DNA of 64,000 nt from Cochleicola gelatinilyticus (GTDB lineage Bacteria; Bacteroidota; Bacteroidia; Flavobacteriales; Flavobacteriaceae): contig NZ_LRXL01000012.1 in the NCBI RefSeq assembly GCF_001637325.1, positions 1 to 64,000 of the forward strand, written 5' to 3'. Below, in pieces: positions 48,378 through 54,712 of this stretch (positions are counted from its first letter, which is position 1; each line of letters opens with the position of its first letter). The position numbers and the translations under genes are program-made. The notes under the pieces are model-generated. The model made no database searches and was not told the origin of the DNA. It was given only the letters and a program-made list of their open reading frames with translations.

Positions 48378-48553
48378 AAATTTGAATGTATCTGTTGCTG
48401 CTATATTTAACAAGCTATTTCAGCAACGTATTAACACCCTACTTACACGCATAGTTCTACTAAGAAATGTAAATAGTGATATTCAAAAATAAGAACTTTT
48501 ACAGAGATTCCTCACGATAGTGCTTATAATCCGACAACAAGAAAATGAAAGTA

Positions 48554-48570
48554 CTATATAAAATATAAAC
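48554..48570 (-). repeat. remnant of a second GIY-YIG gene start (inferred)
   Basis: The 18 bases ending at 48570 are identical to 48880-48897, which encode VYILYS at the start of the GIY-YIG gene. The copy lies behind the second terminator hairpin in the same order and orientation, so it looks like the first codons of another, lost copy. The following sequence (to about 48490) is no longer recognisable. Confidence 0.4.
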
Positions 48571-48635
48571 TAAAAAGACCATCTCGAAAGGAGATGGTCT
48601 TTTAGTCGGGGTAGCAAGATTCGAACTTGCGACCT
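48567..48635 (-). repeat. direct repeat: tRNA 3' end plus terminator, copy 2
   Basis: 69 bases identical to 48910-48978, covering a terminator hairpin (48573-48603, AAAAGACCATCTC / GAGATGGTCTTTT) and the tRNA T-arm and 3' acceptor strand. The copies are 343 bases apart and bracket the GIY-YIG gene. Confidence 0.9.
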
Positions 48636-48668
48636 TCCCGCCATAAAGCGGGACGCAATAACCGAACT
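48606..48668 (-). pseudogene. tRNA-Pro-derived fragment (pseudo-tRNA)
   Basis: Matches tRNA-Pro(TGG) from the D-arm (TTCGGTTATTGCG) through the T-arm and 3' acceptor strand (CTACCCCG). The 5' acceptor strand is missing; its place is taken by the end of the GIY-YIG gene. The anticodon region is altered (CCCGC-TTTATG-GCGGG, a six-base loop), so it cannot serve as a tRNA. Confidence 0.8.
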
Positions 48669-48909
48669 ATTCGGGATTAGCTTCTAGCCATCTCGAAATA
48701 CCTCGTTTTTTGATTCGGGATTCTAAAATTCTTGCGTCTGAACGATCTATGCAATCTATTGTTCTTATTAGAACCCAAGGGATACCGCGCTTAGTAGATT
48801 TTGACCTTCCTCCATTATGACGTAGAAGCCTATCCTCAATATTCGAGGTCTCCCCGCAATAATATTGTGAAATCGAACTACTATATAAAATATAAACCAA
48901 ATGTGACAT
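48667..48909 (-). CDS. GIY-YIG nuclease-like protein inserted next to tRNA-Pro
   Basis: 80 residues, one GIY-YIG domain of the UPF0213/YhbQ type: VYILYSS (GIY position), YYCGETS (YIG position), EDRLLRHNGG (Arg), TKRGIPWVLIRTI, and the metal-binding Glu in ARILESRIKKRGISRWL. The key positions are present. Its last codons (ANPE-stop) are built from sequence joined to a tRNA fragment. Directly upstream lie an intact tRNA-Pro(TGG) and its terminator; downstream a second 3' half of the same tRNA and terminator. This layout suggests a small selfish element that targets the tRNA gene and restores it. Nuclease activity is inferred from the family. Confidence 0.85.
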   Translation of the reverse strand: MSHLVYILYSSSISQYYCGETSNIEDRLLRHNGGRSKSTKRGIPWVLIRTIDCIDRSDARILESRIKKRGISRWLEANPE

Positions 48910-48978
48910 AAACTAAAAAGACCATCTCGAAAGGAGATGGTCTTTTAGTCGGGGTAGCAAGATTCGAACTTGCGACCT
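48910..48978 (-). repeat. direct repeat: tRNA 3' end plus terminator, copy 1
   Basis: 69 bases identical to 48567-48635. Holds the terminator hairpin of the intact tRNA-Pro (48916-48946) and its T-arm/acceptor 3' half. Confidence 0.9.
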
Positions 48979-49024
48979 CCTGCTCCCAAAGCAGGACGCA
49001 ATAACCGGGCTACGCTATACCCCG
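48949..49024 (-). tRNA. tRNA-Pro(TGG)
   Basis: Complete cloverleaf on the minus strand: acceptor CGGGGTA/TACCCCG, anticodon stem CCTGC/GCAGG with loop TTTGGGA (anticodon TGG), T-arm with AGTTCGAATCT. No encoded CCA. Its 3' half is duplicated at 48567-48635. Confidence 0.95.
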
Positions 49025-49126
49025 AAATTGGACTGCAAAAATAAGAAAATTCTATTGTCCTGCAAGAAACATTCATCTTTTTATAGCAGCCTATTATTAA
49101 AGCCTTGATAGGTATTGCTATAGCTA

Positions 49127-52100
49127 TTATTTTTTCTTGTTTTTTGTAGCTTTTTTTGGTTTAGTTGCTGGCTTTTTTTTCGTAATTGTGGTTGTAACTC
49201 GTTTCGATTTACTGGTCTTTTCAACAGATTCATCTTTTAATTGTTTTCTCACTTTGCTCAATGTATTTCTAAGAATATTAATTTGCTTTTCTAGATCTTT
49301 TACTGTTGGAGAATTGGTTAATTTAGCATTTTCGGAAAGGGGTTCATGGAGCGCATAATTTAAGGAACAATTTAAAAATTGAAGGTGCTCCATCTCTGCT
49401 TTCTTTTTAGCTTCAGATCCAACTTTTTTCCAAATCTTATTAAAATTTAATACAATATCTTTCCAACGGTCTTCCATTTTTGCTTCATTATTTTCTCCTG
49501 GGTCTAGATCATCTTCAATAATTAATAAAAGACAGAGATCGATATTTAAGAAAGCTACCATGTCCCAATAGTTTAAGTTATCGTACTCCGATCGCTCTGG
49601 TAATTTTTTCAATTCTTCTTTCAGTTTATCTTGTGCTTCTTCCACTAACTCAATATGACGCATCACCCCCTTTACCTCTTTTTTATTTATAGATTCGGAA
49701 GAATTAAATACCAGCAAACAAGCCAACTCGATTGCATTGACCAAAGAATAGACTTTATTTTTGTTATTCGGACTTTCATAAGCCATCTCGTATGTCTCCA
49801 TGGCAGTTCTATAGGCCTCCAATCGTTCATTTTTTGAAGGCGACAATAAGGCCAATCGCTTGTAAGAACTACCTAATAAGTTAAGTCTTTCGGCGGTTTT
49901 TCCAGCAATTAATAATACTTTTAGATCCCCTATAACCCTTTCTATTGCATTATGTGCTTCTTTTTTATCCTTAAGTGTTGGATTTGATTTTTCAAAATAA
50001 TTTTGAATGTAATATTTAGAACGTGTGTTGCAAAAACGTTCCATACAATTGAAAGAAAATCCTGCATCTTCCATATTAAGTAACTCTTCATATTTTTCGA
50101 TCGCTTCTTTATACATTGCAAGTTCCTGATAAATTTTAGCGATTCGTTCACTAATGTGTGGAGTCATAAAAACATCACGGTCTACCGCATCGATGATCGT
50201 TTGTAATTCCGACAGATAATCATTTTCGGTATCGGTAGCCATCTCTAATTGGTTGAGTAAATTATCTAAATGAATTTCAGCCTCTTGCGGAACAATATAA
50301 TTAGGTGACCATACACGTTTGCCAGAAGTAGCCCCTTTTAATTTAAAAAATGGATCACCATAACATTGGTACGCGCCCCAAGTATTGTTTTCCGGGTATT
50401 TTTCATAAAGAGTATGTCGTGCTTTTTTTACTGAATTCCCGAAAGTATCGCCACTAAACATGGCATCATAAAAAACGGATGAAAAGTCTAAGGCTGCTTC
50501 GTCGTTTACAGCCCAACCTGCTGCAATCACTGCTCTTACTCCAATCTTAATAAGTTGTGTTCCGATATTGGCTGCTAGCTTGTAACGATCTAGATAGAAT
50601 TTTTCGTCCTCTGCATTAGTAGCTCCTAGATGACAGCAATTAACAAAAACCAATTCGGGTACCACTGGCATCTGCTCTATCTCAAAGACAGATAAAAAGC
50701 TCTCTTTACCTATAACCATTCCTGACTTGTTAGGATACTTCGGATTATAAATACCGTGACCTGCCATGTGTATAATTGTATAATCTTGACAGAAAAAACT
50801 TTTTATAATACTCGCCGCACTTTTTCCTATAAGTGAATTAACAGGATAACCAACATTCTCCATGACCTCTTTTACTAAAGTTCCTTCTCTTTTGGCTCCA
50901 GGTAGCTGAGAAATATAACCCTCTAAGATTGGATCTGCTATGACAAGCGCACCTCTTTCTGCTACCCGTTTTATATTAACGCGATACTCTTTGGTTGAAA
51001 GTTGACGAATCATACCAGCGTTTATACATAAAGGCTTTGCATTAGTTGTACTATCCTGCAACAATTCCCATGGATAGGATGCTGTTTTGGTATCTAAGAT
51101 CCATGAAATGTTGCCTTTTCGTTTAAGTTTTTCTTTTAATGCATTGGGAATTAACAACTCAAATAAAGTTTTGGCTGTACACGGGTTCCATTGATTATTT
51201 GTGGACACTTCAGAAATAAAAAGATCTATCAAGGTAGTGCTACTAAACAATTGATTTTCCTCTTCTCTAGAATCGTTCGTAGATGCTCCAAAGATTAGGC
51301 TAGCAGGTTCGTTGGTTTCTTTGTTTTCGGGTTTGTGCTTCACATTAATTCTATTCCACCAGTCTTCAGAAGTATCTAACGGAGTTCTTTTACGAATTCC
51401 CAATAAGTTCTTAATACGTTTATTCCCAATAATGACATTTAATGTTGCATTTTCATTTTGTACAATCTTATTAAGCACATACATACAATTTAGAGCTCGG
51501 TTTGCGTAAAGCTCAACAAATTCAAGATTTTGAACGGTTCGATACCCTTCATTAAACAGCATTTTTATTTTCTCGTTCGCTGCATTCACCCCTTCTATAA
51601 CTGCTTTAATAGATCCTTCTACTGAAAGACCTCCATATCCAGAACCAATTATGAGCGACGATACCCCTATCGTTTTTTTAGATGGTTGTGAATTACGTAT
51701 ACTTAATAAATAATTAAGTACACCCTGCTCAACCGTTTTAGCTAGTTGATGTGAAGTTAATTGATCGGGTTCTCCCAACCCTACGATAATTGCTCCTGCA
51801 AAATCGGTTCCTTGCATTTGATTAAAAAAAGCATTACTACCTATTTCTCCAGGATACAAGCCTAGTCTATGTTTAGAGACAAGGCTTCCTTGAAGATAAT
51901 TGTTAATCGCTTGTTCTGCATGCAATACCCCATCATTCATAAAATGTCCTGCAAGTATGGGGTGGGCTGCATAACGCAAATCACCATTACTCACAGTAAT
52001 GGTTAATGGAATTTGACTTCCTACAGGGTTTTCTTTATTACTTAATCCAAGTACGGTTCTTTCGAGTCCACTTTCAGAAAGATCGAAATCGATATCTGGT

Positions 52101-54712
52101 TCTGCTCTAAATACTTGTTCTTCTCCTCGTAATAGCGGTTTATTATTGGAAAGTAATTTTGTTGTTCCTGTTAAAAGAATCTCTTCAATTGCATCGAAAA
52201 GTTCGGGGTCATTAGCTAAAGCACCATGCGTGACGCGACTATAATAAACCGATTCTTTCGCCATTTCTTTAGGTATGCCTAACTCCCAAGTTACACTTTG
52301 ATCTCCCTCCCCAGTGTATAGAAACTGAAGCTTCTTTTTTGTTTTTCTTTTATCCTTTCCAGTTGGAAAGTCTTCTGTATAATATCCAGTTGGTGTCATT
52401 TTATCTTTCCCTGCGATATAAACCATTTTTGAATAATCGATATGTACTCTTTTCTTCAAAATATTATCTCGATATATTCTAAATTCATTAAGGAGTGCCT
52501 TTGAAGGAAGTGGCCAATCTGAAGTACCGTGATAAGTCCTCATTTTTTGCCAAGTGTTTATATCCGCAAAATCATTTTCAGAATCGGTCGTAAGTGGTAA
52601 TAAGCTCAAAATTCCTGGAAATTTGCTAAACATCTTCAACAAACCTTTTTTAGTATGAAACAAATCGAGCTTGCTTAATTTATTTATAATCGCATCTTCC
52701 CCGAATAATACTGCTGGAATTCTATGTGAGCCTCCTAATGGTGATCCTAAAAAGACCATTCTAAAATCTTTCGAATTATTTAATTCCCTCCAAGTATCCG
52801 GGTGATTAATCAAAAAATCTCTTACCAATACACCACCCATAGAATGTCCGATAATTTTTATAGGCTGTTTAAATGTGAGTAGTTCCTTTACCTTTAAATT
52901 AAATTTTGCAGCACTTACTGGTAATGGTTCGCGCCAATCAAACGGATAAATCACCACGTCGTATTTAGTTGACAACCATTTATACATTTTATAATAAGAA
53001 GTTTTTACTACAGATTCTGCACTAATTCTATTTACATTACTATACCCTAATTTTGTTAAACCACCTGTTAGAATGCGTCCGTAATGCAACCAGATTTCTT
53101 TCTTTTTTTCATTTAAATTAGACCCCATAATTCCTGGAAGCAGTATTACGATGGGTTTATTTCCAGAAGGAATCGTATCGTCTGGATACAATTCTCCGTG
53201 CTCGATACCACGATCACTCCCCGGAATTTCATATTGAGCAATCATTTTGAAACCAGGAACTGGTTCACCCGAAGCTGTTAATAACACTAATTCTATGGCT
53301 TCACGAGTCGTTTCGTTTTCAAAATAATTTACGTGATTCACCTCTGCACTTTGGTCGAAAAAGTATTGGATTTTTCCATTGCGTAGGGCTCCTAAATACA
53401 TTGAGTCGGTATTTACTACCAAATCGTTTCTTTGGGAAAAGAATAATTTTCCTAATATTACGAGTAGTCCGTGGCAAGAAAAATTAACTCTACCATTACC
53501 TGATATAACTAGTAATGGAGCGCCTTGTATTGCAACAGTAGGTGTTGGATCGTTTAAAATTTTAATGAAAGGAGAATCGGGTCTCATGGCTTCAATCCCT
53601 GGTAATACCTTCGTATTATCTTTACTCTCGATAGCTGCCGAAAGTAGTTCTTTTAGAACATCTCCAAAAACACCTGGAATTAAATTAAAAAAAACATTAA
53701 GAACTTGATCCAGCCTTTTTGAAGCTAACTTAGTACCCGCTGCAGGAGAAGCCACCCTAATGAACTTTGTAACTTTGATTTTCTTTTCTTTAAAAATCTT
53801 ATTCAGTTGTTCAATCGCCACAATATCATCTTCTCTTCCCTCTTTTTCCAATAACTCAATATGGTTTTCTGTAAATCCAGTCGGGGTTTCTTCATTGTTA
53901 CAATATTTGTTCAGGATGTCTCCTATAATCCCCCCACGCGAATGGCTGAGAATATGAAGTTCACTATTATTAGGTAACAATTCTGCTAACTTTACCGTGT
54001 TTTGCAAAGGACTTTCGGTAAGTGTTCTATGTTGAAAAGCAATTACATTCGTTTTATAAATATCGTGTAAAGTACTCCAAGTTCGTGAATTCATCAAGGA
54101 TTCGAACGCTCCTTTGGTATCCGAATTAGTTCCATGAATGAAAAGAAAATAAGGTGAATTAGACGTTTTTTCGTTAAATACTTCAAAATTAAAATGAGAG
54201 TCAATTTTTAATAAACCAGCTCCAAATTCAAGGAATTTTGTTTTTTCCAATTCATTTGCTACCGCACTATTTTCTAGAATTCCGTTTAATAAATGTTTGT
54301 CCTCTAGTTTTCTTGCAACGGTAACAATTCCCCTATCCAGAGCTTTTTTTGCAAATAACTTTAAAACCTTAACTACGAACTTTCCTATTATTCCTCGCTC
54401 TGTAATAGGGGCATCAATAGTTCCAGGTAGTACAAATTCTTCAGGGGTATTACTACGAGTTGCTTTAGGTTTTAAAGCAGGGTCGAGTTCAGGGTAAATT
54501 TCGTGCAAGGTTGATGCATCACACATCCAGACAGTTCCGTCTTCCAGTACAAGTTCAATTATTTTGTTCTCAAGAGACACTTTATGTTGGTTGGAGCTAT
54601 CCCGATTGCTTGATTCAAGATTATAAACTAGGACTTCCTCATTCTCATCTCCTATTTTTTCTTCAACAAGTACTTTTTTGCCATATACAACAAGCGTATT
54701 AATTGGTTTCAT
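49127..54712 (-). CDS. giant protein with two lipase-like domains, CHAT protease and helical repeats
   Basis: 1861 residues, no signal peptide. First alpha/beta-hydrolase domain (about 180-330): oxyanion FIHGTNSDTKG and elbow SHSRGG (Ser about 257). Second, LCAT/lipase-like (about 515-780): LLPGIMGSNL and elbow GHSMGG (about 622). A region with YGGLSVEGS (about 1035) follows. CHAT caspase-like protease (about 1190-1465): catalytic His in IHMAGHGIY (about 1315) and Cys in VFVNCCHLG (about 1357). Then helical, TPR-like repeats (about 1480-1790) and a lysine-rich tail. This mix recalls effectors of cell death or immunity in bacteria. Substrate and trigger unknown. Next to a tRNA locus carrying a mobile element; monocistronic. 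Confidence 0.8.
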   Translation of the reverse strand: MKPINTLVVYGKKVLVEEKIGDENEEVLVYNLESSNRDSSNQHKVSLENKIIELVLEDGTVWMCDASTLHEIYPELDPALKPKATRSNTPEEFVLPGTIDAPITERGIIGKFVVKVLKLFAKKALDRGIVTVARKLEDKHLLNGILENSAVANELEKTKFLEFGAGLLKIDSHFNFEVFNEKTSNSPYFLFIHGTNSDTKGAFESLMNSRTWSTLHDIYKTNVIAFQHRTLTESPLQNTVKLAELLPNNSELHILSHSRGGIIGDILNKYCNNEETPTGFTENHIELLEKEGREDDIVAIEQLNKIFKEKKIKVTKFIRVASPAAGTKLASKRLDQVLNVFFNLIPGVFGDVLKELLSAAIESKDNTKVLPGIEAMRPDSPFIKILNDPTPTVAIQGAPLLVISGNGRVNFSCHGLLVILGKLFFSQRNDLVVNTDSMYLGALRNGKIQYFFDQSAEVNHVNYFENETTREAIELVLLTASGEPVPGFKMIAQYEIPGSDRGIEHGELYPDDTIPSGNKPIVILLPGIMGSNLNEKKKEIWLHYGRILTGGLTKLGYSNVNRISAESVVKTSYYKMYKWLSTKYDVVIYPFDWREPLPVSAAKFNLKVKELLTFKQPIKIIGHSMGGVLVRDFLINHPDTWRELNNSKDFRMVFLGSPLGGSHRIPAVLFGEDAIINKLSKLDLFHTKKGLLKMFSKFPGILSLLPLTTDSENDFADINTWQKMRTYHGTSDWPLPSKALLNEFRIYRDNILKKRVHIDYSKMVYIAGKDKMTPTGYYTEDFPTGKDKRKTKKKLQFLYTGEGDQSVTWELGIPKEMAKESVYYSRVTHGALANDPELFDAIEEILLTGTTKLLSNNKPLLRGEEQVFRAEPDIDFDLSESGLERTVLGLSNKENPVGSQIPLTITVSNGDLRYAAHPILAGHFMNDGVLHAEQAINNYLQGSLVSKHRLGLYPGEIGSNAFFNQMQGTDFAGAIIVGLGEPDQLTSHQLAKTVEQGVLNYLLSIRNSQPSKKTIGVSSLIIGSGYGGLSVEGSIKAVIEGVNAANEKIKMLFNEGYRTVQNLEFVELYANRALNCMYVLNKIVQNENATLNVIIGNKRIKNLLGIRKRTPLDTSEDWWNRINVKHKPENKETNEPASLIFGASTNDSREEENQLFSSTTLIDLFISEVSTNNQWNPCTAKTLFELLIPNALKEKLKRKGNISWILDTKTASYPWELLQDSTTNAKPLCINAGMIRQLSTKEYRVNIKRVAERGALVIADPILEGYISQLPGAKREGTLVKEVMENVGYPVNSLIGKSAASIIKSFFCQDYTIIHMAGHGIYNPKYPNKSGMVIGKESFLSVFEIEQMPVVPELVFVNCCHLGATNAEDEKFYLDRYKLAANIGTQLIKIGVRAVIAAGWAVNDEAALDFSSVFYDAMFSGDTFGNSVKKARHTLYEKYPENNTWGAYQCYGDPFFKLKGATSGKRVWSPNYIVPQEAEIHLDNLLNQLEMATDTENDYLSELQTIIDAVDRDVFMTPHISERIAKIYQELAMYKEAIEKYEELLNMEDAGFSFNCMERFCNTRSKYYIQNYFEKSNPTLKDKKEAHNAIERVIGDLKVLLIAGKTAERLNLLGSSYKRLALLSPSKNERLEAYRTAMETYEMAYESPNNKNKVYSLVNAIELACLLVFNSSESINKKEVKGVMRHIELVEEAQDKLKEELKKLPERSEYDNLNYWDMVAFLNIDLCLLLIIEDDLDPGENNEAKMEDRWKDIVLNFNKIWKKVGSEAKKKAEMEHLQFLNCSLNYALHEPLSENAKLTNSPTVKDLEKQINILRNTLSKVRKQLKDESVEKTSKSKRVTTTITKKKPATKPKKATKNKKK

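Follow-up and report, generated by a model that had tools for sequence, protein, structure and literature searches.

A tRNA-Pro-associated GIY-YIG nuclease gene of Cochleicola gelatinilyticus as a probable member of a family of target-restoring mobile elements in Bacteroidota

The stretch of DNA analyzed here (the window) comprises the first 64,000 nucleotides of contig NZ_LRXL01000012.1 of Cochleicola gelatinilyticus, family Flavobacteriaceae (assembly GCF_001637325.1). Its minus strand carries, in this order, an intact tRNA-Pro(TGG), a terminator, an ORF for a GIY-YIG nuclease, a pseudo-tRNA-Pro, an identical terminator and the remnant of a further GIY-YIG gene. The first-pass annotation, made from the letters alone, had named these pieces, and all of them were recovered in their places on the minus strand:

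48948..49024, minus strand: intact tRNA-Pro(TGG) (ARAGORN; Rfam, 54.8 bits)
48916..48946, minus strand: hairpin terminator of the intact tRNA-Pro, with a 13-bp perfect stem and a T run (inverted repeat I8)
48667..48909, minus strand: ORF of 80 aa for a single-domain GIY-YIG nuclease (PF01541, 45 bits)
about 48605..48669, minus strand: degenerate tRNA-Pro copy, approximately positions 8–77 (Rfam, 21.8 bits; BLAST to positions 18–37 and 47–77)
48636..48653, minus strand: palindrome TCCCGC-TTTATG-GCGGGA in the place of the anticodon arm, from a palindrome family common to related Pro elements
48573..48603, minus strand: second, identical copy of the terminator (inverted repeat I7)
48528..48567, minus strand: 5' remnant of a decayed second GIY-YIG gene with its start codon deleted (repeat D1; sequence comparison)
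48565..48635, minus strand: 71-bp exact direct repeat, element-distal copy
48908..48978, minus strand: 71-bp exact direct repeat, copy at the intact tRNA-Pro

The 71-bp repeat is the longest exact direct repeat and consists of tRNA positions 47–77, the terminator and TAGTTTAT; the identity of the two copies had been recognized earlier, but their length had been given as 69 bases. Since the second tRNA copy reaches only 21.8 bits in Rfam, under the gathering score of 29 bits, vs. 54.8 bits for the intact gene, it is regarded as a pseudo-tRNA. It had been described as the 3' part of tRNA-Pro only; positions 47–77 (the T-arm/acceptor side) do align, but so does the D-arm side (18–37), and it is the 5' acceptor strand that has been lost. 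Only the anticodon arm, which lies between these two matching parts, differs; there, CCTGC-TTTGGGA-GCAGG has been swapped for TCCCGC-TTTATG-GCGGGA. The GIY-YIG ORF, which was thought to end at the junction with the tRNA fragment, has its TAG stop codon inside the pseudo-tRNA, most likely at T8-A9-G10. As for the second GIY-YIG gene, the first-pass annotation had seen 18 bases of its start; a remnant is indeed present, but about 40 of its bases align to the start of the ORF, and the start codon is missing; it seems to have been removed with a 16-bp deletion that had short repeats at its ends.

The window protein belongs to PF01541 by its score (45 bits against a cut-off of 22.6), by the presence of all highly conserved family columns and by its fold. 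In the structural model (pLDDT 94), the protein consists of the GIY-YIG domain alone, and a DNA-binding domain is not evident; among solved folds, UPF0213 and Slx1, a nuclease of branched DNA, come closest, and I-TevI is more distant. No group I intron or other intron family was detected in the Rfam scan of 48400–49200, and the intact tRNA-Pro is uninterrupted. An integrase was likewise not found: the GIY-YIG ORF is the sole ORF of the window unit, and other units of 300–370 bp hold one GIY-YIG ORF each.

The genome of C. gelatinilyticus (G000) contains six genes with a GIY-YIG domain, namely, three for long proteins, one for a 104-aa protein and two small ones at tRNA genes. The second complete element (L003/L039, C51:126981–127270) lies at tRNA-Arg(TCG) and has the same layout as the window unit (type A, see below): its GIY-YIG gene is followed by the tRNA-Arg 3' part with CCTGCCTGCCGGCAGGCAGG inserted into the anticodon arm. 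Because the repeat in the window is exact over 71 bp and this architecture recurs at tRNA-Arg in the same genome, the arrangement is not due to chance. The genome also has a tandem array of 127-bp units lacking a GIY-YIG gene (L037, C44:86–496, and L038, at the end of C36), in which each unit consists of the tRNA-Pro 5' half and an anticodon-arm palindrome; the array apparently spans an assembly break and lies near the other tRNA-Pro(TGG) of the genome. The gene for the 104-aa protein (L001, C25:922349–922567) is UPF0213-like and is located, with no tRNA, between long palindromic repeats of the GTCAGTCTGAGCTTGTCGAAGACT...CTTCGACAGGCTCAGCGTGAC type; the gene and these repeats are possibly another nuclease–palindrome pairing.

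Using the two small tRNA-linked GIY-YIG proteins of this genome as queries against 301 Flavobacteriaceae genomes, matches were obtained in 207 of them, many in tandem at 300–370 bp. A set of 110 loci was then picked by protein score only, with the context ignored. An intact tRNA was located within 250 bp in 97 of these loci, in all 97 on the strand of the GIY-YIG gene, whereas none of 34 other PF01541 (GIY-YIG) genes taken as a control had a tRNA within that distance (Fisher P about 1e-22). Among the 13 loci with no nearby tRNA, five are situated at the end of a contig, and three or more open with a displaced tRNA 3' half. In a sample of the phylum Bacteroidota, the protein family was present in 191 of 297 genomes, with up to 18 matches per genome, and 25 of the 30 best loci were at a tRNA, all co-stranded. 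The GIY-YIG genes bordered by tRNA remnants, which the first-pass annotation had proposed to seek across Bacteroidota, are recurrent. One example comes from Patescibacteria (L079, at tRNA-Cys). No tblastn match to the family was obtained in 50,697 phage records, and no carrier plasmid was found. The few GIY-YIG arrays with no nearby tRNA were also considered as possible insertions into some other structural RNA, but the Rfam scan gave only tRNA-like matches, and displaced tRNA 3' halves were seen on inspection. Four GIY-YIG arrays (L165, L129, L084, and L169) open with a severed tRNA 3' half, the cut lying at the anticodon loop, and the 5' half is absent; judging by their sequences, they look like tRNA genes that were already occupied and were later split by an integrase island.

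Two types of units were distinguished. In type A, as in the window, the intact tRNA is followed by a terminator, the GIY-YIG gene, a pseudo-tRNA lacking its 5' end and another terminator. In type B, the commoner one in the family, a pseudo-tRNA lacking its 3' end and provided with a palindrome precedes the GIY-YIG gene, and the intact tRNA follows it. In both types, the missing part of the pseudo-tRNA lies on the side facing the GIY-YIG gene. A tRNA remnant on the side of the GIY-YIG gene opposite to the intact tRNA, counted when its score exceeded 99% of the null, was found in 73 of 78 type B and 14 of 25 type A loci (1% expected); in the other 11 type A loci, none was detected. In nearly every well-preserved pseudo-tRNA inspected, one arm holds a palindrome. 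In type B units of Arg, Ala, Met and Asp, the palindrome enters the D-loop after tRNA position 22 (28 cases), and in the Leu units the breakpoint is after position 24 (seven cases); beyond this D-loop palindrome the tRNA sequence resumes for roughly 7–14 nt. In Pro(TGG) units of type B, the palindrome replaces the T arm, and in the Pro(GGG), Val and Arg(TCT) elements, as in the window, it replaces the anticodon arm. Examples of isotype/palindrome pairs are Arg/CCTGCC, Ala/CCCGCC, Leu/CTGTCTGCC and Pro/TCCCGC. Arrays of pseudo-tRNAs with palindromes but lacking a GIY-YIG gene are known for Pro, Met, Val and Thr. We also considered CCTGCCTGCCGGCAGGCAGG as a strictly tRNA-linked repeat, and this was ruled out, the majority of the sampled copies being located elsewhere. 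Of 80 type B ORFs at the intact tRNA, 50 extend into it, and 46 of the 80 stop on a TAG of the tRNA (31 at positions 8–10 and 15 at positions 21–23). As these ORFs stop within the tRNA, tRNA 5' maturation should strip the stop codon from the GIY-YIG ORF.

Empty sites, which had been suggested as a check on the mobility of the unit, were found for homologous elements in relatives. Within the genus of G272, one species has a filled tRNA-Met site and six others have an empty one, with the upstream gene and promoter region common to all. The filled site reads tRNA positions 1–22, palindrome, GIY-YIG gene and full tRNA; the insertion measures roughly 313 bp. The intact tRNA of the filled site is identical to that at four of the six empty sites, and no means by which the filled allele would resist cleavage is apparent. 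In the genus of G091, one species carries an element at a type A site, where G328 has a decayed copy and G324 and other species have none. Furthermore, a Ser-Pro-Arg tRNA cluster that is compact in L018 and L033–L035 is enlarged by a Pro pseudo-copy and a GIY-YIG gene in L054. These differences between filled and empty sites may reflect gain or loss. In this respect, the homologous elements resemble free-standing homing endonuclease genes: the gene may be present or absent at a conserved position, and relatives have the empty allele. In relatives of C. gelatinilyticus, 29 accB loci have no tRNA upstream of accB, and a clean empty counterpart to the window site was not found among these neighborhoods. 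Tandem arrays, decayed copies and arrays lacking the GIY-YIG gene all occur in the family, and in a small sample of four arrays that combine intact and damaged copies, the undamaged nuclease gene adjoins the intact tRNA in all four, likewise in the window. As far as can be seen from genomes, the units enter tRNA genes with one intact tRNA left, are repeated in tandem and keep a conserved nuclease site. The idea that a mobile unit splits a tRNA gene and brings along the missing part, with an older insertion behind it, had been put forward in the first-pass annotation; its outline is supported by the empty sites of the homologs, while the palindrome-swapped arm had been overlooked.

The phylogenetic tree was built from 106 domains and 82 columns; 11 branches were starred and support was modest. 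The tRNA isotype changes 21 times on it, compared to a mean of 69.9 after shuffling, and the palindrome family changes 16 times, compared to 50.9 after shuffling and 27.0 after shuffling within isotype; none of 200 shuffles was as low in any of these tests. They show clustering of isotype and palindrome by nuclease clade rather than a resolved history. The palindrome families were labeled by motif, because automated hairpin calls picked terminators and mislabeled many loci. The Arg elements fall into two nuclease clades with two palindrome families. The window protein is placed within the Pro group, and some of its nearest neighbors, judged by path length on the tree, come from Pro(GGG) elements, whose TCCCGC palindromes resemble that of the window. 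The median dN/dS was 0.18 and dN was lower than dS in 200 of 200 pairs, indicating that the GIY-YIG ORFs evolve under purifying selection; the columns of the catalytic Tyr, Tyr, Gly, Arg and Glu are 99–100% conserved.

Several known systems resemble these elements in part. SegB is a free-standing GIY-YIG homing endonuclease of the T4/T6 tRNA cluster (PMC13096335, PMC2988022); in phage T6, its cleavage drives the tandem amplification of a tRNA-plus-segB unit, and homology of the tRNA 5' end with the segB 3' end has been proposed as the recombination site (PMC13096335). The elements share with SegB an intron-less GIY-YIG gene adjoining tRNA genes, tandem amplification of tRNA and nuclease, and microhomology between the tRNA 5' end and the nuclease 3' end; by our comparison, the reverse complement GTTCSAWTY of the reported SegB motif RAWTSGAAC is also close to the tRNA T-loop. 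However, SegB is phage-borne, whereas the elements of Bacteroidota are chromosomal and have no close phage relatives among the 50,697 records. The SegB reports describe neither a palindrome-swapped pseudo-tRNA nor the rebuilding of a split tRNA gene, and they mention no preference for an isotype; SegB also needs a C-terminal region beyond the nuclease domain for its toxicity, whereas here the domain is bare. The truncated extra copies of atp6 and atp9 beside the intact gene in fungal mitochondrial genomes rich in homing nucleases are a further parallel, but these are organellar protein genes with no palindromes and are not known to be tied to nuclease insertion (PMC4162613). The group I intron enzyme I-TevI has the same catalytic fold with the conserved Tyr, Tyr, Arg and Glu; unlike it, the elements have no intron, possess the catalytic domain only and restore the target by a copy of its sequence instead of splicing. 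In the REP/RAYT (TnpA-REP) systems, the type of small palindromes follows the clade of the linked nuclease-type gene, and non-autonomous palindrome units exist. The palindromes of the GIY-YIG elements also track the clade of the linked enzyme, although RAYTs are HUH/Y1 enzymes with no tRNA fragments and the enzyme here is of the GIY-YIG type. UPF0213/YhbQ and Slx1 share the fold and are the best structural matches (UPF0213 is also of the same size class), but they have no link to tRNAs in the sampled genomes (no tRNA near L001, L315, and L323).

We consider it likely that the window locus is a small mobile GIY-YIG element that parasitizes tRNA genes, restores its target and spreads in the manner of homing endonucleases. 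Several features documented by comparison of sequences are consistent with this, namely, the proximity to tRNA genes, the remnants on the opposite side, the filled and empty sites, the tandem arrays, the specificity of nuclease clades for isotype and palindrome, and the purifying selection on an intact catalytic site. The unit would comprise a single-domain GIY-YIG gene and a tRNA copy, one arm of which holds or is replaced by a strong palindrome. On entering a tRNA gene, it would bring along the displaced part, so that one intact tRNA stays and the displaced part persists across the nuclease gene as a pseudo-tRNA. The nuclease may break DNA at the tRNA arm or at the palindrome; repair from the filled copy through host recombination over the tRNA repeats would then copy the unit into empty alleles, and the same recombination could enlarge arrays by a SegB-like tandem amplification. 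Because the tRNA target is restored, entry could recur, which would build up tandem arrays whose most recent unit lies beside the intact tRNA. As the tRNA-Met at the filled site is identical to that at four empty sites, an enzyme that cuts tRNA genes should also attack the chromosome that encodes it. This conflict could be avoided by tight limits on its expression; alternatively, the enzyme may act not on the plain duplex tRNA gene but on the palindrome or on a hairpin/cruciform, in keeping with a single-domain enzyme like Slx1 and with the co-variation with palindromes. We assign the elements to the free-standing GIY-YIG homing-type class, with a mechanism inferred from their anatomy.

Among other explanations, a plain tandem duplication of the tRNA with an unrelated small ORF and one copy decaying, raised in the first-pass annotation as a possible refutation, agrees with the exact 71-bp repeats of the window and the frequency of tandem arrays. 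However, the ORF codes for a conserved nuclease on which purifying selection acts, the missing tRNA part faces the GIY-YIG gene, and there are empty sites in relatives. A duplication does not account for the same breakpoint recurring across many isotypes, the palindromes in the pseudo-copies, the opposite-side remnants or the isotype-specific nuclease clades, and we rejected it as very improbable. tRNA 3' ends are classic attachment sites, and the tRNA fragment could accordingly be an attachment-site duplication left by an integrase-borne genomic island, with the GIY-YIG gene as cargo. The four arrays opening with a displaced 3' half from the anticodon loop would fit such a remnant, but the 300–370-bp units hold no integrase, 5' fragments predominate (type B), palindromes occupy the arms and units are in tandem; as the insertion of roughly 313 bp is defined against six empty sites, this explanation was also rejected, and we find it scarcely credible. 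A module beneficial to the host, in which a domesticated nuclease acts on tRNA or tRNA genes (defense or dosage control) and the pseudo-tRNA is a regulator or guide, seems unlikely to us: patchy presence within genera, decayed copies and some arrays with no intact tRNA argue against it, even though the ORF is under purifying selection and overlaps the tRNA 5' end, which would make GIY-YIG translation and 5' tRNA maturation mutually exclusive, and the tRNA dosage of T6 is raised by SegB amplification (PMC13096335).

A more serious alternative, which we hold to be possible although not the favored one, puts the palindrome first in a RAYT-like manner: the nuclease would read the palindrome as a hairpin or cruciform, the tRNA fragments would be a landing platform and recombination homology, and the arrays of palindrome-bearing pseudo-tRNAs with no GIY-YIG gene would be non-autonomous partners. 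Such arrays exist, including that of C44/C36 in C. gelatinilyticus, the palindrome family follows the nuclease clade beyond isotype, and in structure the enzyme comes closest to UPF0213 and to Slx1, which acts on branched DNA. Moreover, CCTGCCTGCCGGCAGGCAGG occurs in 52 of 207 genomes with the GIY-YIG family vs. four of 94 without it (P = 4e-6 in a test that ignores kinship). Against this stand the isotype-specific tRNA sequence strictly kept by the units, the variation of the palindrome sequence by clade and the distance of most sampled interspersed CCTGCCTGCCGGCAGGCAGG copies from GIY-YIG genes and tRNAs. Palindromes like CCTGCCTGCCGGCAGGCAGG are found far from tRNAs too, and they may be repeats of separate origin that came to lie in tRNA copies already dead, a point against the favored reading as well. 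We put forward only tentatively a specific, phylum-wide form of the hairpin mechanism, in which the bare GIY-YIG domain acts on DNA hairpins, recognizes its cognate palindrome in the place of one arm of a decoy tRNA, enters the corresponding arm in tRNA genes of a single isotype and rebuilds the gene, the satellites with no GIY-YIG gene being non-autonomous.

Returning to the tRNA-parasitizing, target-restoring element as the preferred reading, hundreds of like units throughout Bacteroidota show the behavior of mobile elements, inserting into tRNA genes and sparing one working copy. Essential tRNA genes have hitherto been known chiefly as the places where genomic islands attach; nuclease elements, too, seem to reside there in large numbers, tolerable through rebuilding of the target. 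If true, these would be a largely unrecognized class of bacterial genome parasite, and target-restoring mobility of the homing type would extend to chromosomal tRNA genes of bacteria. They could also explain where puzzling tRNA fragments and tandemly arrayed tRNAs come from, and they would connect bacterial palindromes with a family of nucleases. No description of chromosomal tRNA–GIY-YIG elements was found in open-access full texts, and on this basis the novelty is provisional.

Some single loci have further peculiarities. In L246 (about 1179–1986), a tRNA-Ser pseudo-copy occurs in consecutive pieces, with positions 1–35 upstream and 36–58, 58–74 and 74–91 downstream of the GIY-YIG gene. In L130 (about 1427 and 1534) and L204 (about 1763), tRNA 3' fragments (58–75) are located downstream of an intact tRNA with no GIY-YIG gene and are preceded by another repeat, GAGAAGTTTATCC...GTCGAAGG. 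In the window, the tRNA-Pro(TGG) at 48948–49024 is an extra copy beside accB; it matches a copy from another family of the order (L008) at 95% and the second copy of its own genome at 91%, and it may have arrived together with its element. The neighboring gene (49127–54712) is an ORF of 1,861 aa on the same strand as the tRNA-Pro.
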